Assembly (NCBI GenBank): GCA_012522575.1 | Contig: JAAYKE010000086.1 | Location: forward strand, 1 to 39,062 | Direction: 5' to 3' | Length of the DNA: 39,062 bases | DNA from: Armatimonadota bacterium | GTDB lineage: Bacteria; Armatimonadota; UBA5829 | In this document: in pieces, positions 197 through 36,625 of the stretch | Layout: each line of letters opens with the position of its first letter | Position numbering within the stretch: the stretch's first letter is position 1 | Notes under the pieces: model-generated | The model's database searches: none | Told to the model about the DNA's origin: nothing | The model's input: the letters and a program-made list of their open reading frames with translations, nothing else | Program-made: the position numbers and the translations under genes

Positions 197-254
197 ATTC
201 AAAAACGCGTGGCCCCGTCGTCTAGTGGTCAAGGATGCATGGTTCTCAGCCATG
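197..254 (+). repeat. Left attachment repeat (58 bp)
   Basis: Identical to 8162-8219. It spans 14 bases of tRNA leader plus the tRNA-Glu 5' half, and identity ends after the anticodon stem. The anticodon arm itself (CATGG, 7-base loop, CCATG) is an inverted repeat, as expected of a tyrosine-recombinase core site. Confidence 0.85.
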
Positions 255-404: not shown

Positions 405-448
405 AAAAGCCTATTCCATTGTCCTGACCACACAAAGGGGAAATGACA

Positions 449-1411
449 ATGGGACAAGTTGTAAGACTACACAACACACGCACCCCGGCAGATGACTTCG
501 ATACAGCGCGGATAGTATTCGAGTCATACTGCCAGAGCAAGAACCTCTCCGCAAACACCGTGCTATACTACGCCTATCGACTTCAGAGCTTCGGCAGCTT
601 TCTATCATCGAGCCAGAACAGTTGTTCGCCTGCAGATGTTACGCCTGCCGTTATCCGGGACTTCCTGCTGTTCGAGCGCGAACACTCATCAGCGTCAACG
701 GCTAATCATGCGCTGTGCACTCTGCGCGTCTTCTTCAAGTTCCTGCGCGGAGAAGGATACCTCGAAACAAACCCTACCGAGCCAATATCAAAGATGAAAA
801 CCCGCAAGCCCGTCATAGAGACCTTCAGCGGCGATGAGGTGGCGGCCATACTCGATACCTGCGACAAGGGCTTCTGCGGGACACGAGACAGGGCGATACT
901 CCTAATCCTGCTTGATTGCGGGCTTCGGGCGTCCGAGCTATGCGGCTTGAAAATCGATGACGTGGATTGGACAGAGCAGACATTCATCGTTGTCGGCAAG
1001 GGCAATAAAGAGCGCAAAGTTCCTTTCGGCCAAGGCGTCCGGCAGGCTCTATCGAGCTACATCAGCAAGATAGGCAATACCGATGTCAATGCGCTGTTCG
1101 TCACTCACGACGGAGAGCCGATGAACCGCTACAGGTTGCGCGAAGTCGTCCGCATTCGATGAAGACGCGCGGGCGTTACCGGGTTGCGCTGTTCACCTCA
1201 CACACTCCGCCACACCTGCGCGGTATCGTATCTGCGGGCGGGCGGCGATACATTCACCCTCCAAAAGCTCTTAGGACATTCCTCACAGGAGATGACCCGG
1301 CGATATTGCGAAAGTCTTCAGGCCGAAGATGTCCAGGCCAAGCATAAGCAATTCTCCCCGGTGGACAATCTCAAGAGCATTCAGACTACCAGAAAGCGGC
1401 GGCTTCGATGA
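449..1411 (+). pseudogene. int: Tyrosine recombinase/integrase interrupted by an in-frame TGA
   Basis: A tyrosine recombinase of about 320 codons with a SAM-like core-binding N-domain (SANTVLYYAYRLQSF region) and a catalytic domain. The catalytic set is readable: Arg in RASELCGL, Lys in VGKGNKERK, HTLRH, LGHSS and the nucleophile Tyr in TRRYCE. The reading frame is broken at 1160-1162 by TGA, and the same frame continues at once (RRAGVTGLRCSPHTLRH), so this is a single nonsense codon, not a frameshift. The stop separates the active-site Arg and Lys from the HxxR, His and Tyr, so the short product cannot be active. ATG 449 is preferred over ATG 443 because AAAGGGG lies only 2 bases before the latter. 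It sits next to the left attachment repeat, as integrases do. TGA is an ordinary stop elsewhere in the window, so recoding is unlikely. Confidence 0.85.
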
Positions 1412-3332: not shown

Positions 3333-3772
3333 TGCGTCACATGAATAAAAGCGGAACCGTCATGCCTGGAAGCGAGGGCGGTTCCGCAACGAAATCCCCA
3401 CACAATGGGGTTCAATCACATTATACAACATTGATGGCTTACGACGGTAGGCGTCAATTCTTCGCAGGAAAATGGTGCAATGCCGAAGGGCTGTTCCTCA
3501 AGCGAGTCGAGCCTAAGCACATCCTGCGACAACCTCCGGCCATAGCAATTCAGGGCGGCGTTATCCTGAAGCTGAAAGGCATGGAGTGCAGACTGATTCG
3601 CGTTGAGGTCTCGGACGGGCGAATATACGAGGTCTCTTTTGCGGACTTCCTCAAGCACGGCTTCATATTAGACCGTGGTTTCGGCAAGCAGATGGCATTG
3701 TCTCTGGACAAATGGACAGACCCCAACAAGCCAGAGCTTCAAAGCTCACTCTTTGGGGGTGAATTGCGATGA
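3332..3772 (+). CDS. Hypothetical protein upstream of the primase, 146 aa
   Basis: No family recognised. The ATG at 3332 overlaps the previous stop, and a second Met lies three residues in. The C-terminal two thirds are rich in beta-strand residues (AIAIQGGVILKLKG, RIYEVSFADFLKHGF). It overlaps the primase by four bases (ATGA), so the 3123-6075 genes form one translation-coupled replication operon. A helper for replication, such as an origin- or primase-binding protein, is plausible from position only. Confidence 0.6.
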   Translation: MRHMNKSGTVMPGSEGGSATKSPHNGVQSHYTTLMAYDGRRQFFAGKWCNAEGLFLKRVEPKHILRQPPAIAIQGGVILKLKGMECRLIRVEVSDGRIYEVSFADFLKHGFILDRGFGKQMALSLDKWTDPNKPELQSSLFGGELR

Positions 3773-6075
3773 CAATACAAGAGTTCTTGCTGCTTCTTGA
3801 GCCTTATGGCTTGAAAAAGGCCGGGGATGGCTGGATGTGCAAAAGCCCGGCGCGTCCCGAAGAAAAAACCGCGTCACTGTCTATCGACGAGGGCGATGAC
3901 GGCAGAATATTGCTATGCGACTTCGGCGATAAAGGCAACTCTAAAAAAATTGTCGAGATACTCGGACTTAAATGGTCTGACTTAAACGGCAAACCCCGCG
4001 AGTTCCCCAACAACGGTCAATGCAAGTCGCGTGCTGATGTCGCTGCCAAAAACGGCGGCAAACGCAGGGAAGCTGAGTATATCTACGAAAACGCTGAAGG
4101 CAAAAAGATATACAAGGTCATACGATACGCAGATAAGTCTTTTAGCCAATCCAGGTTCGTAAAAGAACCCGACAAGGCCGGATGGTTTCCCGGCATGAAG
4201 GGCATTAAGCGCGTCCTCTACCACTTGCCGCAAGTCATATCTGCGGTCAAGTCGGGCGCAACAATCTACGTCACTGAGGGCGAAAAGGATGTCCACACAC
4301 TCGAAGAGTGGGGATTGGCCGACACTACATTTCCCGGCGGCGCGGAAAGTATCTATTGGAAACCTGCCATTGTCAAACCGCTAAAGGGCGCGGATGTTGT
4401 CATACTGCCAGATAATGACGACGCGGGCAGAGGTTATCGCGATGCGGCGGGCAACATACTTTCCGACAGAGCCGAGAGCGTTCGGGTGCTTGACTTGCCA
4501 GGGCTAAAAGAAAAGGGCGATGTCACAGACTGGAAAAACGCGGGCGGAACCCTTGAGCAATTTTTGGGGTTGGTGGAAACGACGGCTGAGGAGTTCGAGC
4601 CGGTCGAAGTCGCCAAGGTTGCGGGTGGCGCGGACAACTACACAGATGAAGGGTTGTTCTTACTTGCTCCCGACGAATTGCCGATGACAGAACTTGGCAA
4701 TGCCAACAGGTTGAATATGCAGTCGGGCGATAATATGCGCTATATTGTCGGGCGCGGTTGGGTTACGTGGTGCAAAACACACTGGATGCCAGACAAAACC
4801 GGCGAGGTGGCGCGGCTTGCGCAGAGCGTAGTTCGAAATATGCACTCAATGCCCGGCGAGACGGATGACGATGGCTACAGAAAAGCCATTTTGAGTCACA
4901 TCAAGGCTTCAGAGCGGGAGCGCGGCCTAGGTGCGATGATAAAGCTGCTGCAGACGCAAGATGGAATCTCTGTCATGCCCGGTGACGCAGACGCAAACAA
5001 ATACCTACTTAACTGCCTTGATGTAACCGTAGACCTGAGAACCGGGGAGCCGAGAGAGCACAATCGCGAGGACCTAATCACGAAGATATGCAAGGCCGCC
5101 TATGACCCACAGGCCAAGGCCGGTCGGTGGCTGCAATTTCTCGATGAGGTTTTTGGTGGCGATAAAGAGCTTGTCGACTACGCGCAACGACTATGCGGAT
5201 ACGCGCTCACGGGTGATACCAAAGAACAATGTCTATTCCTACTGGTGGGAAAAGGGAGCAATGGCAAGAGTGTTTTCCTGCGGACGCTAATGACGCTGCT
5301 TGGCGATTATTCGGCCAATACTCCGTTTCATACTTTCCTTGAGAAGCGAGATGAGAATACCTGCGACTTGGCGGTATTGCCCGGCGCGAGGCTGGTTATC
5401 GCTTCGGAGGGTGAATCTCGAAACGCATTCAGTGAGAGCCGCATAAAACAAGTCACAGGCCAAGACCCCATATCAGCGCGGCATTTATACAAAGAGTTCT
5501 TCACGTTCATTCCTGAGTTCAAGCTGTTCTTCGCAACAAATGACGTCCCGCGTATCAAGTCACAGAACTACGCTATGCGGCGCAGGATACATCTGCTGCC
5601 GTTCCGACAACGATTCTACTACGAGCACGAGGGCAAAGAGCCTGTTCGCGATGAGCGACTATATGAGCGATTAATCAACGAACTGGACGGCATATTGGCA
5701 TGGGCGGTCGAAGGGTGCTTGAAGTGGCAGGCCGACGGACTTGGCATGCCCAAGGCTATTCGCGAAGAAGTCGATGCACTTTTCGAGGCAATGGACGTTT
5801 TGGGCGAGTTCATCGAAGAATGTTGTGAGCTACATCCCGGATACGAAGAAGATGTCAAAGCCCTTTGGTCGGCTTATCTTAGTCACTGCCAAGGCGCAAG
5901 AATGGAGCCGACGTTCAAACGGTCGAAAGAGTTCTCACAAGCATTGGTTCAACACGATGGCATTGACCGGAAACGGACTAAAACCGGGCGGAAACTGTCT
6001 GGTATTCGACTGAAGCAGAATCGCCAAGAAGTTCTACTTGAAGACGAGAGCGCAGACCAAAACCCGTGGAAATGA
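3769..6075 (+). CDS. P4-type primase-helicase, 768 aa
   Basis: Replication protein of phage and satellite type. The N-terminus (1-70) matches the CHC2 primase region in layout, but the zinc ligands are lost: MCKSPARPEEK stands where the relative at 31024 has KCPAHDDK, and LLCDFGDKG where it has LLHCHAGC. A TOPRIM domain follows (VTEGEKD around residue 170, LPDNDDAGRG near 215). The D5_N-type region precedes an SF3 helicase with Walker A GKGSNGKS (about 494-501) and the C-terminal FFATNDVPRI and RRRIHLLPF motifs. It should prime and unwind the element's own origin, which lies immediately downstream. Length is normal for P4 alpha-like proteins (~780 aa). It is clearly homologous to the protein at 31024-33444. 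Confidence 0.92.
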   Translation: MTIQEFLLLLEPYGLKKAGDGWMCKSPARPEEKTASLSIDEGDDGRILLCDFGDKGNSKKIVEILGLKWSDLNGKPREFPNNGQCKSRADVAAKNGGKRREAEYIYENAEGKKIYKVIRYADKSFSQSRFVKEPDKAGWFPGMKGIKRVLYHLPQVISAVKSGATIYVTEGEKDVHTLEEWGLADTTFPGGAESIYWKPAIVKPLKGADVVILPDNDDAGRGYRDAAGNILSDRAESVRVLDLPGLKEKGDVTDWKNAGGTLEQFLGLVETTAEEFEPVEVAKVAGGADNYTDEGLFLLAPDELPMTELGNANRLNMQSGDNMRYIVGRGWVTWCKTHWMPDKTGEVARLAQSVVRNMHSMPGETDDDGYRKAILSHIKASERERGLGAMIKLLQTQDGISVMPGDADANKYLLNCLDVTVDLRTGEPREHNREDLITKICKAAYDPQAKAGRWLQFLDEVFGGDKELVDYAQRLCGYALTGDTKEQCLFLLVGKGSNGKSVFLRTLMTLLGDYSANTPFHTFLEKRDENTCDLAVLPGARLVIASEGESRNAFSESRIKQVTGQDPISARHLYKEFFTFIPEFKLFFATNDVPRIKSQNYAMRRRIHLLPFRQRFYYEHEGKEPVRDERLYERLINELDGILAWAVEGCLKWQADGLGMPKAIREEVDALFEAMDVLGEFIEECCELHPGYEEDVKALWSAYLSHCQGARMEPTFKRSKEFSQALVQHDGIDRKRTKTGRKLSGIRLKQNRQEVLLEDESADQNPWK

Positions 6076-6082: not shown

Positions 6083-6330
6083 GCTACTGGTGACGCTAAT
6101 GACGCAAGAAACGGTAGTCGAAGGCTATTTTTGAGCGTGAAATCGGAAAAAGGTGACGCAATGACGCAAGAATGGCGTTTTGAAACTATTCACCATGCGC
6201 GCGCGCATGCGCATGCGTGCACGCATGCATGCGCACACGGCGGACTTTTCGGAAATACCCCGTTTTGCGTCATTGCGTCACCAGTAGCGGCATGTTTGAG
6301 CGTGAAACCGGGAAAATCGGTGACGCAAGG
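6083..6330. other. Candidate replication origin: iterons and Z-DNA-prone tract
   Basis: The word GGTGACGC(T)AATGACGCAAG occurs at 6089-6108 and 6152-6170, inverted at 6265-6282, and as a half copy (GGTGACGCAAG) at 6319-6329. TTGAGCGTGAAA(T/C)CGG precedes the second and fourth copies. At 6194-6239 there is a 46-base uninterrupted alternating pyrimidine-purine tract made of GC, GT and AT steps, which includes GCATGC words and can form Z-DNA or cruciforms. The position, directly after the P4-type primase-helicase gene, matches satellite origins. The sequence shows the repeats; their use as an origin is inferred. Confidence 0.65.
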
Positions 6331-8161: not shown

Positions 8162-8219
8162 ATTCAAAAACGCGTGGCCCCGTCGTCTAGTGGTCAAGGA
8201 TGCATGGTTCTCAGCCATG
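8162..8219 (+). repeat. Right attachment repeat (58 bp)
   Basis: Perfect copy of 197-254. Here the tRNA-Glu 5' half supplied by the element is joined to the chromosomal 3' half, so the gene is rebuilt on integration. Confidence 0.85.
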
Positions 8220-8252
8220 AGATCGAGGGTTCGAATCCCTTCGGGGCTACCA
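8176..8252 (+). tRNA. tRNA-Glu (CTC anticodon)
   Basis: A full cloverleaf can be drawn: acceptor GGCCCCG/CGGGGCT (first pair G-U), D arm, anticodon stem CATGG/CCATG with loop TTCTCAG (anticodon CTC), T arm AGGGTTCGAATCCCT, discriminator A and an encoded CCA (8250-8252). The 5' half belongs to the inserted element and the 3' half to the chromosome. A terminator follows at 8289. Confidence 0.95.
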
Positions 8253-8548: not shown

Positions 8549-9541
8549 CTACTTGCCCTCATCTTCAGTCATGCGGCCAAAGACTTCCGAATGATGTGGA
8601 ACCGTCAGGCTATATCGATCTGGTAGGAAGTACCTCAACCATCTCATCAGAGTCTGCCAAGCTCGGTCTGCGTCGAATCCAGGCCGTTCAACCATCGATG
8701 CGATTGCGTCTCTGACTGCGCCGAAACGTTGCGGGGTGGCAACGAATGCATCGACCTTCCTGACGGCCGGTTGCTGAAGCAGAAGTGCACCAACGTAGGC
8801 TTCAAATGTTCCTCTCGGTAGTCCTGCCGGTATAGCTAGTACCGCAAGATCGTTGTTCGCGGCCTCTTGAGATGCAGACGAGAGACGATCAGTCTCACCA
8901 GCATACGCCAGGAACAACTCCTCGGGATTTCGCAGGCTCGGAAGCCAATATGGATCAGGCTGGAAAAGCGAACCGCATTGTTGATGAGCATCCAATGTAC
9001 CGATAGGCTCAGGTTGGCAGGTTGCTTGCCAGACCTGCACCGAGATTGCCTCTACGATCTCGATCATCTGCTCGTAGATGCTATTGTCTATCTCGGCAGA
9101 CACCGCGAATACATGCGGCTCAAACCCGGTCACGGCAGAGTCGTCAAAGGGCAAGGTAGCCAGTAGTTCGAGATTAGGTTGGGCAGCCCATCCTAACGCG
9201 GCTGCAGTAATGTTCGCTGAACCGACAAGGCAGTGGTCGTCCGAGCGGTAGTACTTAGCGTGCAGATTGGCGCAGAGCCATAGCGAGGAGTTTCCGCGTT
9301 CTTTCAACAGTGGCCACACATCCAGATCGCTAACACCAATCACGATTTCGTCTGGACGCCAGCGGGTTATACATCGGAGCACAACTTGGCTTGGTATCGA
9401 CTCCACTACTCGGCTTAGCGCGTCGACTTTTATAAATGGCGCGCAGAGCACCACCTCGGTGGAACTCTGCGCACACAGCTTGATCAGTTGTGTTCCTGGT
9501 GCAGTATCGGGAAATCCTGTCTCTTGCACAGCATTACTCAT
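8549..9541 (-). CDS. PLD-family nuclease-like protein, 330 aa
   Basis: One HKD motif is present: H-A-K at residues 94-96, an Asp at 101 or 102, then GSAN at 107-110. This is the phospholipase-D superfamily active site, used by several restriction endonucleases and helicase-linked nucleases. With a single HKD the enzyme would need to dimerise. The C-terminal half is not recognised and may bind DNA or partner proteins. The start overlaps the GHKL gene by 8 bases, and it is the last gene of the operon. Its most likely role is the nuclease effector of the system. Confidence 0.8.
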   Translation of the reverse strand: MSNAVQETGFPDTAPGTQLIKLCAQSSTEVVLCAPFIKVDALSRVVESIPSQVVLRCITRWRPDEIVIGVSDLDVWPLLKERGNSSLWLCANLHAKYYRSDDHCLVGSANITAAALGWAAQPNLELLATLPFDDSAVTGFEPHVFAVSAEIDNSIYEQMIEIVEAISVQVWQATCQPEPIGTLDAHQQCGSLFQPDPYWLPSLRNPEELFLAYAGETDRLSSASQEAANNDLAVLAIPAGLPRGTFEAYVGALLLQQPAVRKVDAFVATPQRFGAVRDAIASMVERPGFDADRAWQTLMRWLRYFLPDRYSLTVPHHSEVFGRMTEDEGK

Positions 9542-11348
9542 CCTGCGCGAGGAAGTTCCGGGCTACTCGGCCCCAGTCGGTCCTTGTATCCTGTGCATTT
9601 TCCTTGCGAACTCCATCAGGCAACTCATCCTCATATCTAGCCCAGGCAGTTAGGAGCAGTTTCAAGCCATCCGAGGCATTTGACAGGCGGGCACTCAATG
9701 TCGGAGCGTCTTGCCCTTCCGTCTGTTCCTCAAGCACCTCCACTAAGTTATCATAGGCAGGATGCTCAGTGTTAAGCGTGATGATGATAGCACCACCACG
9801 GGGCTTCACAGAGAAAAACGCAGCGGTTTCTAGGGGTGCCTTCGCAAACAGGTATTTCAAGTTGTCAGAAATGGTAGTTGCCGCCAGTTCATCAGCGGCG
9901 CTTTCCGAAACCCCCTCTTCTTTTAGAGTCTCCTCAATAATGCCTCTTCGTTCGTCCGGAGGAAGCTGCTCATCCGCGTCGCTTTCGCCATGGTAGCCTT
10001 GTTGTTGTCGCTCTCGTGTTTTGATCGTTGCTGTCGCCTCCGGAGTCGGGCGCTCGTGCCTCTGAGTCCCGCGTGTGCCGCGTGTCTGCGCTTTGATAAG
10101 CCCACGCAATACATTGAGCTGGGTGCCTATCTTATGCACCACATCGATCAGAGGTGCCCTTGGATCACCATCTTCCTTGAGTTCACAACGAACCTCATTG
10201 ATTGTTCTGCCCCCTGTCGCCAGTGACTCCAAGTCCAAAGCGGCGACGTCAGAGAAGTTTCGGGCGAACTGCTTGTTGTTGGTGACACCAAACAGCTCAT
10301 CAAGTTCTGGTGGAAATTCGATCTCGACGCCCCACCAGCGTTCGCGCGGGTCGTACTGGATGACCAGGCTTTGGTCAAGCTCTAATTCCCTATCGGCCCG
10401 GACTATCGAAACACCTACATTGCGCTTCGCGTGCTTTCCGTAGGAGGAGCTGCCTGCCAGGTCTGCATTGCGTGCGTTTTCTTTTGCGTACGAGAACCTG
10501 ATCTTGATGTCGTGCTTTTCGCCACGGAAATCTACCGTGAACGTAGCTTCATAGTCCTCGCCCATGGGTTTGAACATAGGATCGTGGTCGAACGGTGCTG
10601 GACACGACGTTTCGGCCATGAGATATCCGGGATCATTCGGGCGAGCTAGTTTGTCGGTTGCTATACTCGCTGGGTTCTCAATGTCGAATGAGACGAAACG
10701 AATCTGCACCTTGCCGTTGTCCAAGAACTTCCGGTACATCCGCCCGATGAGAAACTCCGAGTTCTCTATGATAGCAGTGGCAGAACGCCACATGAGCCTG
10801 TCCAGATTGGACCACACAACGAGCGTGCCGGAGTCGCCGAAGGCTGATCCCACCTGCCTCCACATCTGAGGGATTTCTTTGGGCGCTGGATCAGGAACCG
10901 TGCTTCTCTGCCCGTTCTTCACCTCAACGATGTCTAGGTAGGTGTGAATAGCATTCTCAACGCCATCCTGCCACGTCCACACATCGACTCTCTTGCACTG
11001 AGAGATTGACGAAGCCGGGAGCCCCATGCCGAACCGACCAATGCCTGATCGGTCAGCACGTTCGAGATGTGTGCCATTGCCGAACTGGAGCGCCATCCTC
11101 AGAACCTCTGCAGTCATCCCTTTGCCGTTGTCGAGGACAGCAAGTTGCTCTACCCGCTTCCGCCGACGTTCCTCAAGCTGTACTTCCTTCTCGGCACACA
11201 GTAGCTCGACCACTGCTGCACCGGCCTCTATCGAGTTGTCCATCAGTTCAGCAATAGCATAGGCGGTATTCTTGTAACCATTGTCTCTCATCGCTTCAAT
11301 GGCCAGATGAGCTGGCACATAAGGATGATCGTTTACTGCGTTCTCCAT
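9534..11348 (-). CDS. GHKL ATPase, MORC/Hsp90-like, 604 aa
   Basis: The Bergerat ATP-binding fold is clear: N box AELMDNS around residues 33-39, G1 box DNGKGM at 73-78, and G2 box GIGRFGMGLPASS at 102-114. A transducer (S5-like) region follows with a conserved-looking NNKQFARNF segment. The C-terminal third is charged and probably flexible. MORC-like GHKL proteins close around DNA on ATP binding, and related proteins are known in bacterial restriction-type operons together with SF2 helicases and nucleases. That is the context here: helicase upstream (16-base overlap) and PLD nuclease downstream (8-base overlap). It may act as a clamp or conformational switch between the two. Confidence 0.85.
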   Translation of the reverse strand: MENAVNDHPYVPAHLAIEAMRDNGYKNTAYAIAELMDNSIEAGAAVVELLCAEKEVQLEERRRKRVEQLAVLDNGKGMTAEVLRMALQFGNGTHLERADRSGIGRFGMGLPASSISQCKRVDVWTWQDGVENAIHTYLDIVEVKNGQRSTVPDPAPKEIPQMWRQVGSAFGDSGTLVVWSNLDRLMWRSATAIIENSEFLIGRMYRKFLDNGKVQIRFVSFDIENPASIATDKLARPNDPGYLMAETSCPAPFDHDPMFKPMGEDYEATFTVDFRGEKHDIKIRFSYAKENARNADLAGSSSYGKHAKRNVGVSIVRADRELELDQSLVIQYDPRERWWGVEIEFPPELDELFGVTNNKQFARNFSDVAALDLESLATGGRTINEVRCELKEDGDPRAPLIDVVHKIGTQLNVLRGLIKAQTRGTRGTQRHERPTPEATATIKTRERQQQGYHGESDADEQLPPDERRGIIEETLKEEGVSESAADELAATTISDNLKYLFAKAPLETAAFFSVKPRGGAIIITLNTEHPAYDNLVEVLEEQTEGQDAPTLSARLSNASDGLKLLLTAWARYEDELPDGVRKENAQDTRTDWGRVARNFLAQDE

Positions 11349-12952
11349 ACATCCTCCCAGTTGCGGAATGCCTGGGCAACTGCGCCAAACCCTGGCAGTT
11401 CCTGATCTACAATAGTGACTACTTCAGCATCAACATTCCCCCCGGCTCGGGGGCCACGGATTGCCCTGCCTACCATTTGGCTATATAGGACAAGTGAAAG
11501 CGTTGGTCGAGCGATTACCGCCGCGCTGGTCTTAGGAGCATCAAAGCCTGTCGTAAGCACACCGTAGTTGCACAGGACTTTGGTTTCAGGGGAATCGTCC
11601 TTGAAATCTTCAATGATACGTGCTCTTTCAGCCGAAGGGGTTGCTCCAGTCAGCGAATATGCCTGTATTCCTCGCGCCCGCAGGGCGCAAGCGATGGTCT
11701 TCGAATGCTGAACGGAAGCCGCAAAGAGTATGGTGCGGCGATGCCTTCTAACCAGGTCTTCCACTTCCTGAACAATGCGCAAGTTACGCTGGTCGTTTTC
11801 ACCAAGCTTTTCCAACACACGAATGGGAATATCCAGTTCTTCCTCTATTCGGCGCAGGTCGGCATCAGTTATGCGCAAGCCGCTGTTAGCGAGTAACGGC
11901 CGGAACGTCACTCGTGCAATGTAGCCTTCCGAAACTAGATAATCGAGCGGGTTATCGTAGCCAGGAACACTCAACGCAACTTTCTGACGTACAAAGAAAT
12001 CCGCCAAGCTCTGATCTGCGTTGATGTCGGACCACGTCCGACCTGGTGTGGCGGTTAGTCCGAGAATGGAAGTTCTTTCGCCCATGACGAAAAGCGCGCT
12101 CAGTATCAGTTTGTACGTCTCAGCGACAGCTTGATGAGCCTCATCCATTACCACCAAGGTACACCGTCTACCGAGCGCGCTGATGAAGTCGATGCCGTTG
12201 TCTCCCCTTATTGTGCTGTAGACCTTCGACAAGCCAGCGATCACAATACCATCGGATACTCCTTGGAGGTCGAGGCTGTGCGAACCCCAGAAGCGGCGGA
12301 GCTTGATATCTCGGTTGCCCAAGGAACGCCATGCACGAGCGAACTCTTCCGCAGCCTGCTCACAGAGTTCCTCTGTGTGCGCGAGCCAGACTACCAACGT
12401 GGGTTCGTTCGAGCGGAGATGATCCGCAATGACATTCATTGACGTCCGAGTTTTGCCGGAGCCCGTGGGCATATGAAGAAGCACGCGGCGTGGTTCCCGT
12501 GACAGGTAGCTTGCCACTTCATTTGCGGCCCGACGCTGATGCTCAAAAAGCGGGTAATCGACCGAGCACTCTTGAGTGTTGTCGGGAATGATTCGCTTAT
12601 CAATCGCTGGCGGATAGAGCTCAAAGAAGCCGAACAGCACACCTTCCTTCTCAGAGCCTCGCGGAAATCGCGATTGCCTCAGCTTCGCATATACGTCTCC
12701 ATCATTCCCTATCCCGATTGCCTGGGCAAGAGTTCGCGCCTCACCGTCTCGGAGCAGATCAAGAAGCAGGGTCCTACTATCGGTGTCGAGCAACAACCCC
12801 TCAGGGCCACGCAAACCAAGAAGCAACTCCCGCAAGCGTGTGGGAGTTGCCAATGTCCTATCTAAGAGCATTATCAAGCGGAGAGCGGCGCTACCAAGCA
12901 AGGTCTGTAGCGTCTCATCATCCGCTCGTGAGAGCAGATTGTTGAACTCCAT
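11333..12952 (-). CDS. DEAH-box SF2 helicase, 539 aa
   Basis: Walker A is MPTGSGKT (161-168), Walker B is DEAH (270-273), motif III-like is LTATPGR, and motif VI is QMVGRAIRG (near the C-terminus). The RecA-like domains are of the type I/III restriction-helicase and UvrB-like group. The ~130-residue N-terminal extension is helical and unrecognised. It should translocate on or remodel duplex DNA. It overlaps the GHKL gene by 16 bases and lies 28 bases after the PAPS-reductase-like gene, in the same operon, so it is probably the motor of the restriction or sensing arm. Confidence 0.9.
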   Translation of the reverse strand: MEFNNLLSRADDETLQTLLGSAALRLIMLLDRTLATPTRLRELLLGLRGPEGLLLDTDSRTLLLDLLRDGEARTLAQAIGIGNDGDVYAKLRQSRFPRGSEKEGVLFGFFELYPPAIDKRIIPDNTQECSVDYPLFEHQRRAANEVASYLSREPRRVLLHMPTGSGKTRTSMNVIADHLRSNEPTLVVWLAHTEELCEQAAEEFARAWRSLGNRDIKLRRFWGSHSLDLQGVSDGIVIAGLSKVYSTIRGDNGIDFISALGRRCTLVVMDEAHQAVAETYKLILSALFVMGERTSILGLTATPGRTWSDINADQSLADFFVRQKVALSVPGYDNPLDYLVSEGYIARVTFRPLLANSGLRITDADLRRIEEELDIPIRVLEKLGENDQRNLRIVQEVEDLVRRHRRTILFAASVQHSKTIACALRARGIQAYSLTGATPSAERARIIEDFKDDSPETKVLCNYGVLTTGFDAPKTSAAVIARPTLSLVLYSQMVGRAIRGPRAGGNVDAEVVTIVDQELPGFGAVAQAFRNWEDVWRTQ

Positions 12953-12980
12953 TAGTCATCCTGTATCTGACGATCTCCTA

Positions 12981-13775
12981 CTACAAAGTGCAAACCAAAC
13001 ACGGTCTCTCCCAGCTATCATCCTCGAAGATTTCGGCTAAGCGGCGGTCAGTAGGGATCTGCCTTTCCGTCCTTCTGGCGTATTCGGCCTTTATCGCTTC
13101 AATTCTCTCGGACCGGGATAGTTCTTCCAAACTCTCATTGTCGCACCAAGTAAATCTTCTACCAGTGGCGTTGTCGACCTTTTCGTATTGACTGGCCAAC
13201 TCGAACAGGTCAGGGTGATGTTCCAAAAGACCTACCCATTCAATCTTTTGCTGGAAGAAGCAGAAATAGCAGCCCGAGCGCGATCTCCAAGTGCGGTACT
13301 GCGGCAGACCGATCCCGGATTCCTCAAGAATGCGAACTACATCGGTATAGCAAAGGCCAGCTTCCTTGAACGGAAAGACAGGCTTGATGTTGGGCTTGGT
13401 TGAGATGTAGCCCTCCCTATCCTCGTCAGCCCGAATCCCCACATAACTGATGACAGATGAGTCTCCTACATACCGCTCGAACGGCTCAAGCTTCAGATGC
13501 CTGGTACACCAGCGCATCTGTGAAGATGGCAGATAGCCACGGAATATGTTGAGCCAGTGATCGAATCCTCGCCCGTCTCTTAGAGTGAGTATCGGCCTTC
13601 CGAGCACTCCCTCCAGACGAGCAAGGTAGTCGTATGTCTCCGGGAGTTCCTTCTCAGTGTCACAGAATACGTACTCCATCTGGGGTACTCGGTCCCGCAT
13701 GTAGATAGCAAGCGCCGCACTATCTTTGCCACCGGAAACACACAATATATGGCGTATTTTATCGATTTCCATCAT
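12981..13775 (-). CDS. PAPS-reductase-family protein, DndC-like, 264 aa
   Basis: An ATP-pyrophosphatase PP-loop, SGGKDS (residues 14-19), opens an adenine-nucleotide alpha-hydrolase fold. Cysteines lie at Cys90 (MRWCTRH), Cys169/Cys172 (GCYFC) and Cys259/Cys262 (CLVC), enough to hold an iron-sulfur cluster or zinc. This is the family that includes DndC/SspD (DNA phosphorothioation) and BrxP of BREX type 4, rather than assimilatory CysH. ATG 13775 is preferred because GAGG lies 7 bases upstream; ATG 13787 would also work. It overlaps the ATPase gene by 17 bases. No DndD, DndE or cysteine desulfurase is encoded nearby, so the chemistry is uncertain: it could modify DNA with sulfur or another group using a host sulfur donor. 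Confidence 0.85.
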   Translation of the reverse strand: MMEIDKIRHILCVSGGKDSAALAIYMRDRVPQMEYVFCDTEKELPETYDYLARLEGVLGRPILTLRDGRGFDHWLNIFRGYLPSSQMRWCTRHLKLEPFERYVGDSSVISYVGIRADEDREGYISTKPNIKPVFPFKEAGLCYTDVVRILEESGIGLPQYRTWRSRSGCYFCFFQQKIEWVGLLEHHPDLFELASQYEKVDNATGRRFTWCDNESLEELSRSERIEAIKAEYARRTERQIPTDRRLAEIFEDDSWERPCLVCTL

Positions 13776-16700
13776 GCGAGGCCTCATTTCGCGACTGCTC
13801 GTCAGCAGATTCGGTACCTAATAATATCACTCGCCGGGCTGCTTCGGCAACTGCCGCTAACAGAATCTGAGTGTCCATCTCAGTCGAGTATTTGCCGATG
13901 ATCTCATCCGCGGCACGTTCCGCTTCATCCTTGTCTTTCTCCGACAGTCTCACGACTCGCCGGACAGGTTCGTCATGTTTGGTGTCTATCGTGACCAGAT
14001 AGCCCGCTTCGCTGTCCTGTAGACTAGATTTCAGATCGACGAGTGTCTCCGCAGACCTGACCTTAGCTGAGAATTGCGCGACGAGTTTGGTGAACAAATC
14101 CTCGTCTGCTCTGCTCCAACGGTTTGGCGGCTGGCCGACGATACCTGCAGCAATCGACTCCAAATACTCGTCATCAGGTAGAATGGTGTCGACAGCACGG
14201 TTCATCAGTGTGCGCAATCCCGTATCTGTCACCAGTCCCGAAAGCAGTGTAGCTCTTTGAGGGATGACGTCTCTCCAGTCTTCTTGAGTCTTCGGGATAT
14301 CGAATATCCGAAACACATCGGTCTTGATGCGACTGAGCAGATCTGAATAGCATGTCATTAGCGCGTTGAATGCCTCGTTGAGTACATCGAAGAACTTGGC
14401 TACGCGTCTCTCATCACACTTGGAAGAATGAACCTCGAATGGGCGGCATCCTAACGCCTCCGGAAGCTCGATGAAGAGTAACCGCTCGGGACTTTTCGCC
14501 CTAAGAATGGCGTCCCTGGCTTTCACGGAGTTGTCAGGCAGGTTCCGAGTTATCTCGACATATTTGTTCAGTGAGGACATTCCCGCGTAGATTGAACGTA
14601 TGACGGGCAGCAGAGCGCTATCAACGTTGAAGCCTTTGGCGAAACGCTCGACCACCACCGCACGCTCGCCTTCTACAACAAAACGCAGTACGGAGAAGTT
14701 CCCAGGGTTGCGCATCAAGCGTTCCATTACCGGAAGAGTCACCTCCGGCACGAATGTGCCGTCCTCATATAGCGCCATGGTTGCTGCGTATGCATGAAGG
14801 CAAGCATAAAACAGAACCGGCACAAATCCATCGGCGACACCGAATGGTGGCCCGCACAACTCTGAGAACAGATCTGCCAGTGGTTTGGGTTGCAGCGATT
14901 CAGAGCAGGATGCTTCAAGAATGTGGTTCCAAGCTTTTTGCAGCCCTGGATCGTCATCGCTCGGACTTGCGAACCCCCACTCCCCACGATCACTCTGCCG
15001 GTGTATCTTGCTTTGCCTGAGAACTGACTCGTAGATGCTTCGCTCAGGGGGATAGCCATTGAGACCAAGTCCGTCCTCCTGACTATGCAGGAGCATTGCC
15101 TCGATAAGGTTTCGGCGTGCCGCCGCTGCTGCTGAGGATAGATAGCGGCGGTTGATCAGTTCGTTCTGGACCGTAGGGGCGTATGGGTAAATCTCGTCAG
15201 TAGCTGAGGATACAAGTTCTGCAAGCTCTTTGCTTGACTTCGTTTCTTGCCTCTGGCCTTTCCAGTAGACGGCAGCATGTCCCGAACCCGGGGTGAACAA
15301 CCTGTTCCATTCCGACCGAAATGCAATGCTTGCCTCAAGCCGTCGCTCTTCAAGTTCTTGACGTGCCACACGGTCTCCCGTGAGACCAGGCGTGTTGTTC
15401 TTCACCCATTCGAGCGCAGCCACGTCGCGGGCTGATTCCGCAAGCTGATCTGTCTCTCGTGTGACCATCACGATTGTCGAATTGTCGATATTGGCTTTCA
15501 GTAAGTCCTGGACCGCGCCGTGCTGTTCTTCGTTCTCCCCTAAGCAACAGATTATATGTCCGTCGGCTTCGTCTTTAGCAGATAAGGCTGCTTGCATATC
15601 TTCGGATGAAGCCGGAATGACGGAGAATAGCCTCAGCATCCGTTTTATGTATGAATGCTTCCGGGCAACGAGTGGCGGGGCAGGGCAAAGTTCCTTTGCG
15701 ACCAACAGAGAAACGGACTGCGTAGGCAAGGTCTGATATGCCGCAGTCAGACGTTCTCCAATGTCAATATCGCTGCCTTCGTACAACCTGAAAGCATTAC
15801 GGAACCGGCGATATACGGTAAGCCTTCGTGCTTCCAGTGATTTCAGCACTTCCCTTAGCTGCTCTGCACTGAGTCCTGGCGATTTCAGGGCTAGTTCCAG
15901 CACCTCGTGCGAGGCAGGCAATCGTGATGCGTCGCCGACCAGGTTGAGCAGGCTAATAGTCTTGAGAGTACGGACCTCAGACTCTGTTGCGTCGCCTAAG
16001 CGTGCAAGTCCGTCCTCTGCTTCCGCCCATGCTCGCGCGATCTGTGGAGTCGGAGCGCCACCGATCAAGGTATGGCACGCGTAGTCATAGATGTGCGGTA
16101 GTCGAACGAAAGGAGGATCATCGACGTTGAACTCTTGGTTCCGCACCCAACGTGGTAATGAGAAAGGCTCATCAGCCGACAAGAAAGAGAACAGTGATCG
16201 CTCGTTCTGTCCGAACCGCTTGAATAGCGAAGGGAGCAGGAGCACCGTAGTAGGATGCAGTGGGTAGCAGGATGCACAGAGCTTCTCAAAGTCTTCCTCT
16301 GATCCTCTCGGAGCAAGTACCGAGCAGTCACGGGCGGCTTGTCGCACGTTCTCGATAGGTAGGGATGCCGACTCTTCTTTTCCGTTCATCGCGGCAGCCA
16401 CTAATTGGAGCGCATCTAGTCCGTCCAAGGCACACGGGACGTCAAAGAACCGCTGCTGCACCTTGGCCCATTCTTTCTGGTGACGGCGGCCTAGACGAGA
16501 AGCATACTGCGAAAACTGCTGGTGAAGGATAGTAATGAACCACAGGGGACTATCATAGCTGCGGGAAGCCGCTTCTGCCAGTTCTTGAAGCACCTGAACA
16601 TCACTTTCGTCGGGATTCAGTGCCGCATGCTCAAGCAGTTTGCCAAGCTCATCGACTATGATAATCAGTCCTTGAGCTTGTTCGTGTTCCTTGGCCAACT

Positions 16701-17229
16701 TGGCCAGATCCTCAAAAAGCGCAACTACTTGCCGCGTACTTGGATCAGAAGCAACCAGAGCAGCTTCGTGCTGACGCGACAGTGCTTCAAGCAGGGCTTC
16801 TCGCCCCGACATCTCCAGAGATCGCTCTAGACTACGTACAAGGCAAGCCGACAGGTTTTCACGTCCGCCGGTTGCTAGGACTGTCACGTACCCCTCACCA
16901 TCCGAGGGCAGTAGGTTATCCGCAATCGGCCCTAAGTCTTGACGAGCTTTCGCTCGAAGTCCATTGTTCTGTTCCTTTTCCAACAGCTTGGCAAAGAACA
17001 GGGCAAGAGCGGACTTGCCGGACCCGTATGGCCCCGATATGCATTGCGCCCGGTAGGACGGATCGTTGACTCCACGACTGAGCAATGAGAGAGCGGCAAG
17101 CGTACCGCGCGTCACCAAGTAGCCGTCTGCAGCATCCCTACTGTGGAAATCCCTTTCCAGATTGACCGACCGTAGGAAGCGAGGACGAAGCGATACCATC
17201 TCGGCTAAAGGAGTCCTACTTGCGTTCAT
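13759..17229 (-). CDS. Large P-loop ATPase, BrxC/PglY-like, 1156 aa
   Basis: Walker A is GPYGSGKS at residues 66-73 and Walker B is IIIVDE at 189-194, followed by a HQQF-type sensor segment (WFITILHQQFSQYASR). About 900 residues of helical, unrecognised sequence follow. Size and N-terminal layout resemble the large ATPases of BREX (BrxC/PglY) and related ATPases of defence operons, but I cannot confirm the subfamily by eye. The start overlaps the DUF4007 gene by 14 bases and its end overlaps the PAPS-reductase-like gene, so the three are translated together. It may be the platform on which the sulfur-transfer-type enzyme acts on DNA. Confidence 0.8.
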   Translation of the reverse strand: MNASRTPLAEMVSLRPRFLRSVNLERDFHSRDAADGYLVTRGTLAALSLLSRGVNDPSYRAQCISGPYGSGKSALALFFAKLLEKEQNNGLRAKARQDLGPIADNLLPSDGEGYVTVLATGGRENLSACLVRSLERSLEMSGREALLEALSRQHEAALVASDPSTRQVVALFEDLAKLAKEHEQAQGLIIIVDELGKLLEHAALNPDESDVQVLQELAEAASRSYDSPLWFITILHQQFSQYASRLGRRHQKEWAKVQQRFFDVPCALDGLDALQLVAAAMNGKEESASLPIENVRQAARDCSVLAPRGSEEDFEKLCASCYPLHPTTVLLLPSLFKRFGQNERSLFSFLSADEPFSLPRWVRNQEFNVDDPPFVRLPHIYDYACHTLIGGAPTPQIARAWAEAEDGLARLGDATESEVRTLKTISLLNLVGDASRLPASHEVLELALKSPGLSAEQLREVLKSLEARRLTVYRRFRNAFRLYEGSDIDIGERLTAAYQTLPTQSVSLLVAKELCPAPPLVARKHSYIKRMLRLFSVIPASSEDMQAALSAKDEADGHIICCLGENEEQHGAVQDLLKANIDNSTIVMVTRETDQLAESARDVAALEWVKNNTPGLTGDRVARQELEERRLEASIAFRSEWNRLFTPGSGHAAVYWKGQRQETKSSKELAELVSSATDEIYPYAPTVQNELINRRYLSSAAAAARRNLIEAMLLHSQEDGLGLNGYPPERSIYESVLRQSKIHRQSDRGEWGFASPSDDDPGLQKAWNHILEASCSESLQPKPLADLFSELCGPPFGVADGFVPVLFYACLHAYAATMALYEDGTFVPEVTLPVMERLMRNPGNFSVLRFVVEGERAVVVERFAKGFNVDSALLPVIRSIYAGMSSLNKYVEITRNLPDNSVKARDAILRAKSPERLLFIELPEALGCRPFEVHSSKCDERRVAKFFDVLNEAFNALMTCYSDLLSRIKTDVFRIFDIPKTQEDWRDVIPQRATLLSGLVTDTGLRTLMNRAVDTILPDDEYLESIAAGIVGQPPNRWSRADEDLFTKLVAQFSAKVRSAETLVDLKSSLQDSEAGYLVTIDTKHDEPVRRVVRLSEKDKDEAERAADEIIGKYSTEMDTQILLAAVAEAARRVILLGTESADEQSRNEASHDGNR

Positions 17230-18160
17230 AGTAAGCCTCCAGGAACTTCATTGGTTCGAGAGACGAATCGCTCTCTTTCACGATGCTCCGAGTCAGCGGT
17301 GTATCCACAAATCTAAGTGCGCCATCGCTAACCAGTTGGAGCTGATCCAGATAGCAGAGCACCGAATCTTCGTCCAGCTTGAAAGTCAAAGCGGGGCTAC
17401 CTTCCGATGTCATAACCTCGCGGACTTCCAACGTATCTCTGTCACCGGCTGTCGTCTTCCAGAACTCGATGAGCGCATATGCGAAGATTGCCGTAGGCAG
17501 TGAGTGTTTAGGACCTACTCGAAAACGAAGCCTATCACCATCCGGTTCTTGAAGGAGGAGTCCCAGCGTAGTAAGAGGACAGCCTATTGGGTCCTCACCG
17601 GCGACCGAGACGTCCTTGCGCTGAACGTAGGTATGTACAAAGCAATCGACATCTCGCTTCAGCGTCGAATCTGAGGCATCTCCCCATCCAAGCATCTGAA
17701 GGTGTCTGGTTAACGCTTCAACCATTGCTGCTCTGGTAAATGCATACTCGTAGAACCGATTGAATGCCCAATACCACGTGGCTGCGCGTGCATCGGTACT
17801 AGTGAGATTCCAGTGAAGGAGCCATAGGGTAGCGTCATCCTCTAGGTAAGGGTCCCATCCGCCTTCAGCTAGGAGTCTGAGGCCGAGGTCGCTAGGCATG
17901 AGACGTCTTCCACGAGTCTTGTCTTCTTCGAACGCCATCCGTGTAGCAAGGCACCAATGGCGAATAGATCGCACCATATTCCTGCCGACTCCCAACAGCA
18001 CGATGGCGTCGTCGCGTTGGAAGAGGTCAGGCTTGCCTATGAGATTATCCACGCCCTTCTTCAGCCACGAATAGCGGAACGCAAATGTTTCGTGACCAGC
18101 AAAGGACTTCTGAAACGGTATAGGCAGCCTATCGCTGCTAAGAAGCTGAATCGCCGACAT
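17216..18160 (-). CDS. DUF4007 family protein, 314 aa
   Basis: The N-terminal FQKSFAGHETFAFRYSWLKK is the hallmark opening of DUF4007 (SF-HETF--R-GWLKK pattern). The rest is helical with many Trp residues. DUF4007 genes are typically found beside PAPS-reductase-family genes in defence-type loci; their molecular role is not settled. Helical winged-helix-like organisation suggests DNA or partner binding. It starts 30 bases after the HTH gene and overlaps the ATPase gene by 14 bases. Confidence 0.8.
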   Translation of the reverse strand: MSAIQLLSSDRLPIPFQKSFAGHETFAFRYSWLKKGVDNLIGKPDLFQRDDAIVLLGVGRNMVRSIRHWCLATRMAFEEDKTRGRRLMPSDLGLRLLAEGGWDPYLEDDATLWLLHWNLTSTDARAATWYWAFNRFYEYAFTRAAMVEALTRHLQMLGWGDASDSTLKRDVDCFVHTYVQRKDVSVAGEDPIGCPLTTLGLLLQEPDGDRLRFRVGPKHSLPTAIFAYALIEFWKTTAGDRDTLEVREVMTSEGSPALTFKLDEDSVLCYLDQLQLVSDGALRFVDTPLTRSIVKESDSSLEPMKFLEAYYERK

Positions 18161-29734: not shown

Positions 29735-31034
29735 GCCGAATCCACATTTCAAGGATGCGGACGGGATCGATAGCAAGGTCTCAGAAGTCGCGCCCAAGCT
29801 CAACTCGAAGCAGCATGCGGCGGTAGTTACCAGCGCGGGACACCTGATTTCGCTCATGTCGGGCGGGGCCGGATCAGGAAAGACATTCACCATCGATGCG
29901 TATACTCGGCTCTGTGAATCGCGCGGCCTCCGAGTCGTGCTTTGCGCCCCGACCGGCAAGGCCGCGAAGCGCATCGAGGAAGCCACTGGCCGGGAAGCAT
30001 CGACCATTCACAGGCTGCTCGGGTTCAACGGCAAGACCTGGTCGCGCAACTCGGAGAACCCAGTGTCCACCGATGTGCTAATCGTCGACGAGGTCTCGAT
30101 GGTGGATGTCATACTCGCCTGGCGTCTATTTCAGGCCGTTGACCTCAAACGCACTTCCGTGGTCCTTGTCGGCGACCACAACCAGCTTCCGCCGGTCGGC
30201 CCGGGCAACATACTGCGCGATCTCATAGACTCGCGCGCGCTGCCGACCACCATCCTCGACGACATCGTCCGCCAGGCCGGAGTCCTAAAGGAGAACAGCA
30301 TTGCTATTCTCAAAGGCGAAGTGAGGAAGACTCATAGACCGGATGTTGGCACGCGCGGCGCTTGGTATGTGGCCGACCAGTATACGGAGGCAGAGCGCGT
30401 TCAGAAGTTCGTTCTGGACCTCTTCGAGCACACTCTCCGGGAGAAGCTGGGCTTCGACATCCTGCGTGATGTCCAGGTGCTTACTCCCACCCACAAGGGC
30501 CCACTTGGAACGGCGGAACTCAACGGCCTGCTTCAGCGGCTCTTGCAGCGCAAGCTCTGGGACTACGATGTGCCGCCCGCTCAACCCGGCAGGCGTCCGA
30601 AGCTGCTAGTCAACGACAAGGTCATTCAGACCCGGAACAACTACGACCTCGGCGTCATGAACGGCGCGATGGGAATCGTTCGCAGCGTCGGTTTCGATGG
30701 GTCGCTCACAGTCGAGTTCGAGGACAGAACTGTCAACATCGAAGCCGGATCGCCGCATCGCAGCGATATTCAGCTTGCCTACGCTCTCACAATACACAAG
30801 TCCCAAGGCTCGGAGTTTCCCTGCTCGATAGTGATCGCCCATAAATCGCACTCGTTCATGCACAATCGGAACCTGCTCTATACCGGCGTCACGCGCGCTT
30901 CGCGGACAGCAATCATCGTAGGCGACCACTGGGGGATCGCCAACTGCGCAAAACGCGTAAAGGTCGATGCCAGGAAGACGTTCCTTTCGCTCATGCTGCC
31001 GTGTCTTTCCTCGGAGGTGAAGGTTGAATGTTAA
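29694..31034 (+). pseudogene. RecD2-like helicase, 5'-truncated
   Basis: The SF1B helicase motifs of RecD2 are readable: GGAGSGKT (residues ~57-64), TGKAAKR, VLIVDEVSMVD, LVGDHNQLPPVG, and the C-terminal SKGSE-like YALTIHKSQGSEF plus LLYTGVTRA. RecD2 proteins have ~700 residues; this one lacks the N-terminal ~250 (OB and helical region), which was lost at the breakpoint. In-frame coding continues upstream of ATG 29694 to about 29652, so that ATG is not the native start. It overlaps the primase gene by 11 bases, and belongs to the same phage-type replication block. Motor motifs are intact, but function is doubtful. Confidence 0.8.
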
Positions 31035-33444
31035 CGATGTAGTCGCCCACTTCATGGGCGCTAAGAGGACATCCAACGGCTGGCAAGCGAAGTGCCCCGC
31101 TCATGATGACAAAGTGGCGTCCCTGTCGATTCACCAGGAAGAGGACGGCAGAATTCTGCTGCACTGCCATGCCGGATGTGAACCTGATGTCGTTCTACGC
31201 GCAGTTGGGCTCAAGCTGTCCGACTTGTTCCAAGACACTGAGAGGTCGGTACAGCCAAGAGGTGGTCGTGGCGGGAGCAGGAAGAGGAAATCGGCTCCAT
31301 CCGATTCCATGATCGTCGCCGAATACGATTACCGAGATGAATCAGGAGCAATCCTTTTTCAGGTTGTCCGATTCGACCCAAAGGATTTTCGGTGCAGACG
31401 GCGTGTTGTGACTTCGACCAGTGCGGGTTGGACCTGGAACATGGACGGTGTCCGAAAGGTTGTCTACCGGCTGCCTGAAGTTATGGCGGCAACAGGTGGT
31501 GGAAATCCGGTATTCGTCGTAGAAGGCGAGAAAGATGTCCATACGCTTGAACGCCTCGGACTCGTCGGGACCTGTAACCCTGGTGGCGCGGGCAAGTGGA
31601 TAAAGGCATTCGCACCGTCTTTCCGAGAAGCCGATGTTGTCATCGTGACTGACAATGACCCGTCTGGCCGCGATCATGCTGAGACTGTCGCAAGGACGCT
31701 GAAGGGACATGCGAAGCGGATTCGAGTAGTCAGGCTGCCGGACCTGCCTCCCAAAGGCGATGTGACTGATTGGGTCGAGGCAGGGGGCACTATTGAAGAA
31801 CTTCTGAAGCTGGTCGATTCGGCGGCTGACTGGGAACCAGCCCCGGAAGTCGAGGTGACACTCGGCATTGACGGCGAGCCGCTCAATGACCTCGGCAACG
31901 CACGTCGGTTGGTGAAGAAGCATGGAGACTCCGTCCGGTTCTGCTACGATGCTGGCAAGTGGTATGACTGGGATGGCAGACGCTGGAGTCGAGATGAGAC
32001 AGGTGAAATCGTTCGCAGGGCCAAGGAAGTCGTTGATGTGATGTACGCTCAGGCTCTTGCCGCGAAGAAGAAAGCTGAATCCGAAGCAGATGACGAAGCC
32101 CTGGAAGCCGCCAAGACATTCGAGCGCCATGCTGTAACCTCCGGCAATCACCGGCGCATAATGGCGATGATCTCGCAGGCGGAATCGGAACCGGGTGTTC
32201 CCATACTTGCGAACGAACTGGACAAGGACAAATGGATCTTCAACTGCGCCAACGGTACGATTGATCTCGTCACCGGGCAACTCCGGTCGCACAACCGCTC
32301 TGATCTCATATCCAAAATAAGCCCGATTGCTTATGACCCAGGTGCAAAGTGTCCGACCTGGGCACGGTTCCTGCGTGAGGTATTCGAGGACGATCAGGAA
32401 CTGATACGGTTCGTCCATCTGGCTTCCGGTTACACGCTTACAGGCGACACGCGTGAGCAGGTCTTCTTCATACTCCACGGCTGCGGGTCGAACGGTAAAT
32501 CGACATTCATAATGGCACTGCGGGACATCTTCGGCGATTATGAGACCAAGACCTCGACCGACACGCTCATCGAGAAGAACTCCAACAACACAAACGACAT
32601 CGCGGCTCTCCGGGGATCGAGGTTCGTCAACGCTATAGAAACGAGCGCGGGAAAACGTCTGGCCGAAGCCCTGGTTAAGGAACTGACCGGGCAGGATGCC
32701 GTCAGCGCACGGTTCCTCTATCAGGAGTTCTTCACATTCATACCGGTGTTCAAGCTTTGGCTTGTGTGCAATCACGTGCCAGCAATTCAGGGACAGGACC
32801 ACGGTATCTGGCGGCGCATAAGGCTCGTGCCCTTCGACGTGCAGTTCAAAGAGTCAGAGGAATCCATCGGGCCATACAAAGACAAGTCGTTGCCGGAGAA
32901 GCTCAGAGCTGAATATGAGGGAATTCTTGCCTGGCTCGTGCGTGGGTGTCTCGACTGGCAGAGAGACGGGCTGCCGACAGCCAGAGCCGTCAGAGCGGCA
33001 ACGGGAAAACTCCAGCAGGATATGGATGTGCTCGGAGGGTTTCTCATCGAGTGCTGCGCATTCGAAAAACATGCCGAAGTCTCAGCTAAGGTATTATATT
33101 CGGCCTACTGCCAGTGGGCGGAAGGTAACCGGGAGAAACCTCTTTCACAGCGATGGTTCGGCCTGCGGCTTTCCGAACGCGGGACCTGCGAGCGCATACA
33201 TCGCAGAACTGGATGGTTCTGGATTGGCATACGCCTGGCGGAACAGTCTGAAGCTGTGACCCAAGTGACCGATGTGACGCAAGACCCCCGGAAGTTTCCT
33301 CCATGCGCGCGCGAGAATGGCGATATGGAAGGGTGTATTACACAGACATCCATGGAGCTTTTCCAGGAGATAGCGTCACATGGGTCTCAAGAGTCACACG
33401 ACACAAATGATAGTCTTGACTGGTCGAACGGGGTGGCGTTCTGA
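31024..33444 (+). CDS. P4-type primase-helicase, 806 aa
   Basis: CHC2 zinc-binding domain with all ligands (KCPAHDDK, then LLHCHAGC, residues ~23-57), a TOPRIM domain (VEGEKD near 169, VTDNDPSGRD near 210), the D5_N-type region, and an SF3 helicase (Walker A GCGSNGKST near 488; FFTFIPVFKLWLVCNHVP; RRIRLVPFDV). TTG 31024 is the start: GGAGG lies 6 bases upstream, and the frame overlaps the helicase gene. Its C-terminal coding end carries 9-base-spaced GTGAC repeats and a CATGCGCGCGCG tract (33254-33313) that match the candidate origin after the homologous gene at 3769. Likely phage replication initiator. Confidence 0.92.
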   Translation: MNVNDVVAHFMGAKRTSNGWQAKCPAHDDKVASLSIHQEEDGRILLHCHAGCEPDVVLRAVGLKLSDLFQDTERSVQPRGGRGGSRKRKSAPSDSMIVAEYDYRDESGAILFQVVRFDPKDFRCRRRVVTSTSAGWTWNMDGVRKVVYRLPEVMAATGGGNPVFVVEGEKDVHTLERLGLVGTCNPGGAGKWIKAFAPSFREADVVIVTDNDPSGRDHAETVARTLKGHAKRIRVVRLPDLPPKGDVTDWVEAGGTIEELLKLVDSAADWEPAPEVEVTLGIDGEPLNDLGNARRLVKKHGDSVRFCYDAGKWYDWDGRRWSRDETGEIVRRAKEVVDVMYAQALAAKKKAESEADDEALEAAKTFERHAVTSGNHRRIMAMISQAESEPGVPILANELDKDKWIFNCANGTIDLVTGQLRSHNRSDLISKISPIAYDPGAKCPTWARFLREVFEDDQELIRFVHLASGYTLTGDTREQVFFILHGCGSNGKSTFIMALRDIFGDYETKTSTDTLIEKNSNNTNDIAALRGSRFVNAIETSAGKRLAEALVKELTGQDAVSARFLYQEFFTFIPVFKLWLVCNHVPAIQGQDHGIWRRIRLVPFDVQFKESEESIGPYKDKSLPEKLRAEYEGILAWLVRGCLDWQRDGLPTARAVRAATGKLQQDMDVLGGFLIECCAFEKHAEVSAKVLYSAYCQWAEGNREKPLSQRWFGLRLSERGTCERIHRRTGWFWIGIRLAEQSEAVTQVTDVTQDPRKFPPCARENGDMEGCITQTSMELFQEIASHGSQESHDTNDSLDWSNGVAF
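33254..33313. repeat. GTGAC repeats and CG-alternating tract inside the primase 3' end
   Basis: GTGAC words at 33256, 33265 and 33274 have an exact 9-base period (the last is GTGACGCAAG), and CATGCGCGCGCG follows at 33302-33313. Inverted GCGTCAC and GAGTCAC lie at 33373 and 33391. The same words form the candidate origin at 6083-6330. This may be a compact origin embedded in coding sequence. Confidence 0.45.
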
Positions 33445-34361: not shown

Positions 34362-34392
34362 CGTTCGTTAAGACTAATTCGGCTGTAATCAT

Positions 34393-35063: not shown

Positions 35064-35191
35064 GGAGTGGCGGGTGTGTCACGCGTGAGTTTCGGAGGCT
35101 CGGAGCCAGCGATTTCGGATAAGACGTATTCTCCGAACTCGCTTCTTGCCGCACGCAATCCCGGAAAACAATGGCTGCCGGAAATGGAGAG

Positions 35192-35223: not shown

Positions 35224-35237
35224 GCAGCGCGTGCGAC

Positions 35238-36519: not shown

Positions 36520-36625
36520 TTCACTGCCTCCGAGATTGATGTTGTTCACATTCACGCTTGGACCGTGCCTGAAAGTCAAGGAGAATGTGATCAGCAATCG
36601 TCCGGGGATTTCGTTGGAGAAGGTC

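Follow-up and report, generated by a model that had tools for sequence, protein, structure and literature searches.

Does the short stretch behind a primase-helicase gene in an Armatimonadota bacterium serve as a replication origin and, if so, does the long alternating purine-pyrimidine run at its centre have a part in initiation? The window, by which we mean the whole 39,062-nucleotide stretch of DNA analysed, holds TGACGC iterons in tandem pairs within 248 bp (6083-6330) behind a P4-family (TIGR01613) primase-helicase gene, and the original prediction, made from the letters, took this for a candidate origin in which iterons and tract would aid initiator binding and unwinding. Overall, we believe that 6089-6326 is very probably an origin of P4-family type from which an integrated, satellite-like element of 7,965 bp replicates. 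The kind of origin is known, and its GC-rich alternating centre is a variant.

Anatomy of the site

The three full iteron copies, one of them inverted, and the half copy that had been described are all present, at 6089-6105, 6152-6167, 6267-6282 and 6319-6326, built from the units GGTGACGC and ATGACGC (Table 1); the 46-bp alternating tract is exact and uninterrupted, and the site does lie directly behind the primase-helicase gene, which ends at 6075, so that tandem iterons begin at 6089 immediately behind the presumed initiator gene. The site is intergenic in the window; in many relatives it falls within the 3' end of the primase gene. Pair 2 contains the dimer GGTGACGCAATGACGC at pitch 8, an exact inverted copy of which lies in pair 3, and the two pairs together form a perfect 18-bp inverted repeat whose arms stand 95 bp apart. 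A second arm pair, of 14 bp, joins 6083-6096 with 6275-6288.

Between the inverted arms, in a loop of 57% GC, lies the tract, whose 23 dinucleotides are nine CG, eight CA and six TG, with no TA, and which starts with a 16-bp perfect palindrome, CATGCGCGCGCGCATG. Long, alternating and rich in CG and CA/TG, it has the sequence properties by which a Z-DNA-forming element is recognized, and the original prediction saw in it a candidate for Z-DNA or cruciform structure. An AT-rich unwinding element, usual at such a centre although not shown to be obligatory, is absent from the tract and its loop. The iterons and the tract are not a product of chance, because in the whole 3.06-Mb genome the 16-bp dimer matches at its two places only and every match to a 24-base alternating pattern falls inside the tract, so that the dimer and alternating runs of at least 24 bp are confined to this site. 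GC skew has no turning point at 6083-6330.

Table 1. Coordinates of the features discussed (positions in the window)
Feature	Position	Strand	Basis or remark
Left 58-bp direct repeat, probable attL	197..254	+	100% identical to 8162-8219
Tyrosine integrase	443..1162	+	PF00589 E 2.8e-23; phrog_1
P4-family primase-helicase (D5_N, DUF5906, TIGR01613), presumed initiator	3769..6075	+	TIGR01613 279.3 bits
C-terminal winged-helix domain (predicted), residues about 684-754, presumed iteron reader	5818..6030	+	AlphaFold2
Iteron pair 1, GGTGACGC-T-AATGACGC, pitch 9	6089..6105	+	
25-bp direct repeat, copy 1, ahead of iteron pair 2	6127..6151	+	88% identical to 6292-6316
Iteron pair 2, left arm GGTGACGCAATGACGCAA	6152..6169	+	
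Alternating pyrimidine-purine tract, 46 bp, 70% GC, Z-DNA-prone by sequence	6194..6239	.	
Iteron pair 3, right arm, perfect inverted copy of pair 2	6265..6282	-	
25-bp direct repeat, copy 2, ahead of half iteron	6292..6316	+	
Single (half) iteron GGTGACGC	6319..6326	+	
Right 58-bp direct repeat, probable attR	8162..8219	+	overlaps tRNA-Glu(CTC) 8176-8252
Second P4-family primase-helicase, separate phage-like module with terminase genes	31024..33444	+	
Second-primase iterons GTGACCC-AA-GTGACCG-AT-GTGACGC, pitch 9, inside gene 3' end	33256..33280	+	
12-bp alternating tract CATGCGCGCGCG between second-site arms	33302..33313	.	
Inverted iteron GTGACGC, second site	33373..33379	-	

The element and its presumed initiator

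The primase-helicase gene and the repeats behind it lie within 7,965 bp that carry 58-bp direct repeats at both ends and sit at tRNA-Glu. We regard this as one integrated element because the repeats, their overlap with the tRNA gene and the integrase occur together, and by its gene content it is satellite-like or plasmid-like, since a search for structural phage genes found none and the other element genes tested matched no family beyond those of the integrase and the primase-helicase. The element apparently entered the 5' part of tRNA-Glu and restores the tRNA; integration at the 3' end is more usual. Elsewhere in the window, outside the element, are further recombinases and an Ssp-type DNA phosphorothioation defence cluster (8549-18160) with SspB (17216-18160), SspC (13759-17229) and SspD (12981-13787), a helicase (11333-12952), an MzaB-like protein and a PLD-like protein. 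The phage-like module at 29694-38152 encodes an exonuclease V/Dda-like helicase, the second P4-family primase, with iterons and an alternating tract of its own (Table 1), and small and large terminase genes; it is possibly the helper phage of the 8-kb element.

The presumed initiator scores above the curated TIGR01613 cut-off of 108.7 bits, and the initiators of pRN1, P4 and Sfi21 score at or above it. An AlphaFold2 model of its C-terminal 140 conserved residues, built with 19 relatives, predicts a winged helix (pLDDT 85). In Foldseek the best PDB match to this model is the RFX1 DNA-binding domain bound to an X-box (1dp7, probability 1.00, with a weak E-value of 1.4e-3), and the P4 origin-binding domain comes lower (1ka8, probability 0.84, with a weak E-value of 0.43); by sequence, the best relative of solved structure is 7ola (E 4.5e-6), an entry deposited under the name 'DNA primase', which we take to be SaPI5 Rep. 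From this predicted fold and from homologues, we infer that the C-terminal domain binds the iterons. RFX half-sites read GTNRCC, and GTCACC, in the reverse complement of the iteron, fits them, which we treat as a lead only.

The layout recurs behind homologous primases

Loci for comparison, designated here by L numbers, came from viral contigs, same-phylum genomes and annotated phages; a single-protein scan of the viral contigs gave two distant relatives only, and an alignment scan gave 80 loci. In each locus the final conserved glycine of the primase (G745 in the window protein) served as anchor, inverted repeats with 15 to 220 bp between their arms were scored, and the best one was taken per whole locus of roughly 4.5 kb. 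Within an enlarged set of 46 loci, whose members are under 60% identical to each other, 35 have their best inverted repeat no more than about 330 bp past the final conserved motif of the primase, against 3.8 expected. The zone behind the anchor takes 48 of 62 loci at a redundancy cut of 90% (4.2 expected), 27 of 37 at 70% (2.5 expected) and 15 of 23 at 50% (1.5 expected), and in 25 of the 29 scorable loci the arms are themselves tandem iterons at a pitch of 8, 9 or 10 bp. Together with the origins of pRN1, P4 (crr) and Sfi21, this recurrence lends support to the origin that had been proposed.

The iterons themselves vary widely among loci (TCTGACGGG, GTGACGACC, GTGAACGAT, TTAGACGA, TGTAGGGAG, GTTACTTTT, ACTACGTA and others). 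The original prediction had named a lack of conservation beside homologous primases as the result that would count against it, and what we find is conservation close by: of the five relatives whose DNA-binding domains come closest, L017 (45%), L026 (38%) and L007 (36%) share TGACGC with the window, with iterons identical in 8/8 bases, and L122 (39%) and L023 (38%) are without it, while more distant homologues retain the layout but have iterons of other sequence. Across 27 loci, iteron and DNA-binding domain showed no co-variation (Mantel rho 0.05, p 0.25). L017 (primase 50%) derives from an Armatimonadetes genome, and the window's host belongs to the same class by kinship; with L017 as query, the genome contigs returned L017's own sequence alone.

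Inspection of ten further annotated phages and satellites revealed the layout in Mycobacterium phage Ramen, Streptococcus phages Javan599 and Javan633, Ruminococcus phage NatCom_28274 and the streptococcal satellites Javan490 and Javan729; the structure is absent from Euratis, Dubu, DickRichards and KEN18, which have the same primase class, and likewise from Warda. An exact search of the viral contigs for TGACGCAATGACGCAA returned 50 stretches, most of which lack a matching primase or any clustering of iterons. Clear exceptions are L186, where iterons lie behind a homologue, and L159 (2270-2560), where a TGACGCAATGACGCAA iteron pair is inverted around a centre rich in TATATATA, behind an 833-aa protein whose similarity to primase-polymerases is weak and which has no TIGR01613 match. 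In L168 (1900-2210) a long simple array of the 8-bp units aatgacgt/aatgacgc reads like an expanded iteron array.

The alternating tract and alternative readings

At 46 bp, the window has the longest of the central tracts seen; others include CGTACACGCGCGCGCGCGTA in AcaML1, CATGTGCGCGCGCACATG in L133, GCGCGCGCGCGCGTA in L134 and ATATATATATA in L080. L023 has a 27-bp alternating tract, CGCGCGCGCGTGCGCGCGTGCGCGCGT, about 1.1 kb behind the primase anchor and away from its predicted origin. It might be argued that the site is an origin in which only the iterons and their spacing matter, the tract being a neutral spacer produced by slippage of CG/CA repeats, and we give this reading not far short of an even chance. 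Many relatives with good iteron arms, among them L017, L023, L026 and L053, lack a long alternating run between those arms, as it would lead one to expect, and the tract is sometimes lost between related origins, such as L028 and L120, which differ within it by 2 transitions and 10 transversions. Yet among 30 diverse origins with good arms the central run reaches at least the 95th percentile of equal-sized stretches of the same locus in 11, where 1.5 would be expected, and it also beats shuffles at 0.05 in 11; slippage by itself would not prefer this position across unrelated origins. The substitutions within the tract bear on the same point, with 18 transitions against 2 transversions in the 18 closest pairs less L028/L120 and a ratio of about 1:1 outside the tract, although with L028/L120 included the count becomes 20 against 12 (p 0.2; median p 5e-4 over random pairings). 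This count required the tract in one partner only; a first version (p 2.7e-4) required both partners to carry it, and was rejected as biased. The pattern is suggestive, not conclusive, of alternation having been maintained in one large phage lineage. As far as sequence comparison goes, the alternating tract recurs among P4-family-type origins but is optional, a role for it as a Z-type or direct unwinding aid is plausible, and the tract of the window probably serves as a deformable or Z-prone unwinding aid under negative supercoiling.

Readings that deny the site an origin built of iterons fare much worse. Iterons often act in copy control too, and operators typically take the form of inverted repeats about 18 bp long, so the repeats might be imagined as regulator operators for autorepression of the primase operon or for control of the downstream small genes; this is highly improbable, because the repeats lie behind rather than before the primase gene, and inside its 3' end in several relatives, because a search of the region for a promoter-like site found none, and because the homologous sites of pRN1, P4 and Sfi21 are origins. 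Hardly more probable is that the long inverted repeat functions by folding into a stem-loop or cruciform, the proposal made for pRN1, or serves as a transcript terminator or RNA, in place of double-stranded iterons. Single-strand folding of the region is indeed very stable (z -5.9), and changes that alter the stem-loop of pRN1 abolish its replication (PMC4234260). But a stem has no need of arms that each consist of units repeated in tandem every 8-10 bp, origin after origin, or of the further iterons that lie outside it at 6089-6105 and 6319-6326, and searches of the region revealed no terminator-like site and no Rfam family at gathering score.

We thus favour an iteron-based origin, since the layout recurs behind homologous primase-helicases and since proven or annotated origins (pRN1, P4 crr, Sfi21) occupy such sites. 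Consider how it might fire. The winged-helix tail of the element's own primase-helicase would bind the TGACGC iterons, and two SF3-type hexameric helicases would assemble head to head, one per arm, an arrangement suggested by adjacent iterons 8-9 bp apart and by inner pairs that run in opposite directions. The two hexamers would then melt the DNA between the arms, where the alternating tract lies in the very place that melting is expected, and the primase domain could start synthesis in both directions.

Comparison with known origins

In the archaeal plasmid pRN1 of Sulfolobus islandicus, an inverted repeat of 100 bp that lies 54 bp past the initiator gene forms the origin and suffices in cis; its authors read it as a stem-loop without iterons (PMC4234260). 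Like the window, pRN1 has a TIGR01613 initiator gene (orf904) directly upstream and perfect inverted arms, and these arms, TTATGTCCATAGTGTCCAACT, 21 bp long around a 58-bp loop, hold TGTCC twice at pitch 9, a tandem repeat TGTCCATAG-TGTCCAACT of the window's type; unlike the window, its initiator is a prim-pol rather than a TOPRIM-like primase, and its loop is 22% GC. In BPP-1, TTTGCCTCG tandem arms surround CATACGTGTACATG about 470 bp past the primase stop, and the pRN1 authors reportedly drew a stem-loop for the near-identical BIP-1. Phage P4 shares with the window a P4-family initiator (alpha) with a C-terminal winged helix and, just behind the alpha gene, a crr whose type I iterons, spaced at pitch 9, form inverted pairs; it differs in its iteron GGTGAACA, absent from the window site, in its two 120-bp crr copies and distant ori1, and in its AT-rich centre. 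The annotated origin of Streptococcus phage Sfi21 (34487-34784) is likewise a non-coding stretch behind a P4-family primase, with arms AGTTACTTAGTTAC inverted around a central tract, whereas its centre is AT-rich (11% GC) with a 9-bp ATATATATA run. In Acidithiobacillus phage AcaML1 (L014) the region behind the primase has iterons inverted around a 20-bp alternating tract, as in the window, but the iteron is another one, TCTGACGGG, and the region is not annotated as an origin in the stretch of the record covered.

Self-loading helicases of Gram-positive hosts are also comparable, in that the helicase gene or operon of SaPI Rep and SCCmec Cch2 is followed at once by iterons: Cch2 is a Primase_Cterm-type helicase whose C-terminal domain binds the iterons behind the operon and whose activity needs them, and SaPI Rep is described as binding iterons behind its own gene, apparently as two hexamers (PMC7581432). 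The Cch2 iterons differ (AAGTG), and there inverted repeats are dispensable for binding.

Taken together, these cases may point to one layout shared by P4-family origins of phages, satellites and an archaeal plasmid, of which a large GC-rich subset keeps an alternating centre, deformation or a B-to-Z transition replacing AT-richness for unwinding; we offer this generalization tentatively, as possible rather than probable, and, within the open papers that form our literature, the priority of the general layout is not certain. The layout nonetheless supplies a simple rule for locating origins next to initiators of a class that is very common in phages and satellites, also in elements known from metagenomes only, and it raises the question whether a GC-rich alternating tract can stand in for an AT-rich unwinding element. 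In this light, origins formerly described in different terms, the iterons of P4, the stem-loop of pRN1 and the non-coding region of Sfi21, are linked with one another and with the site in the window.
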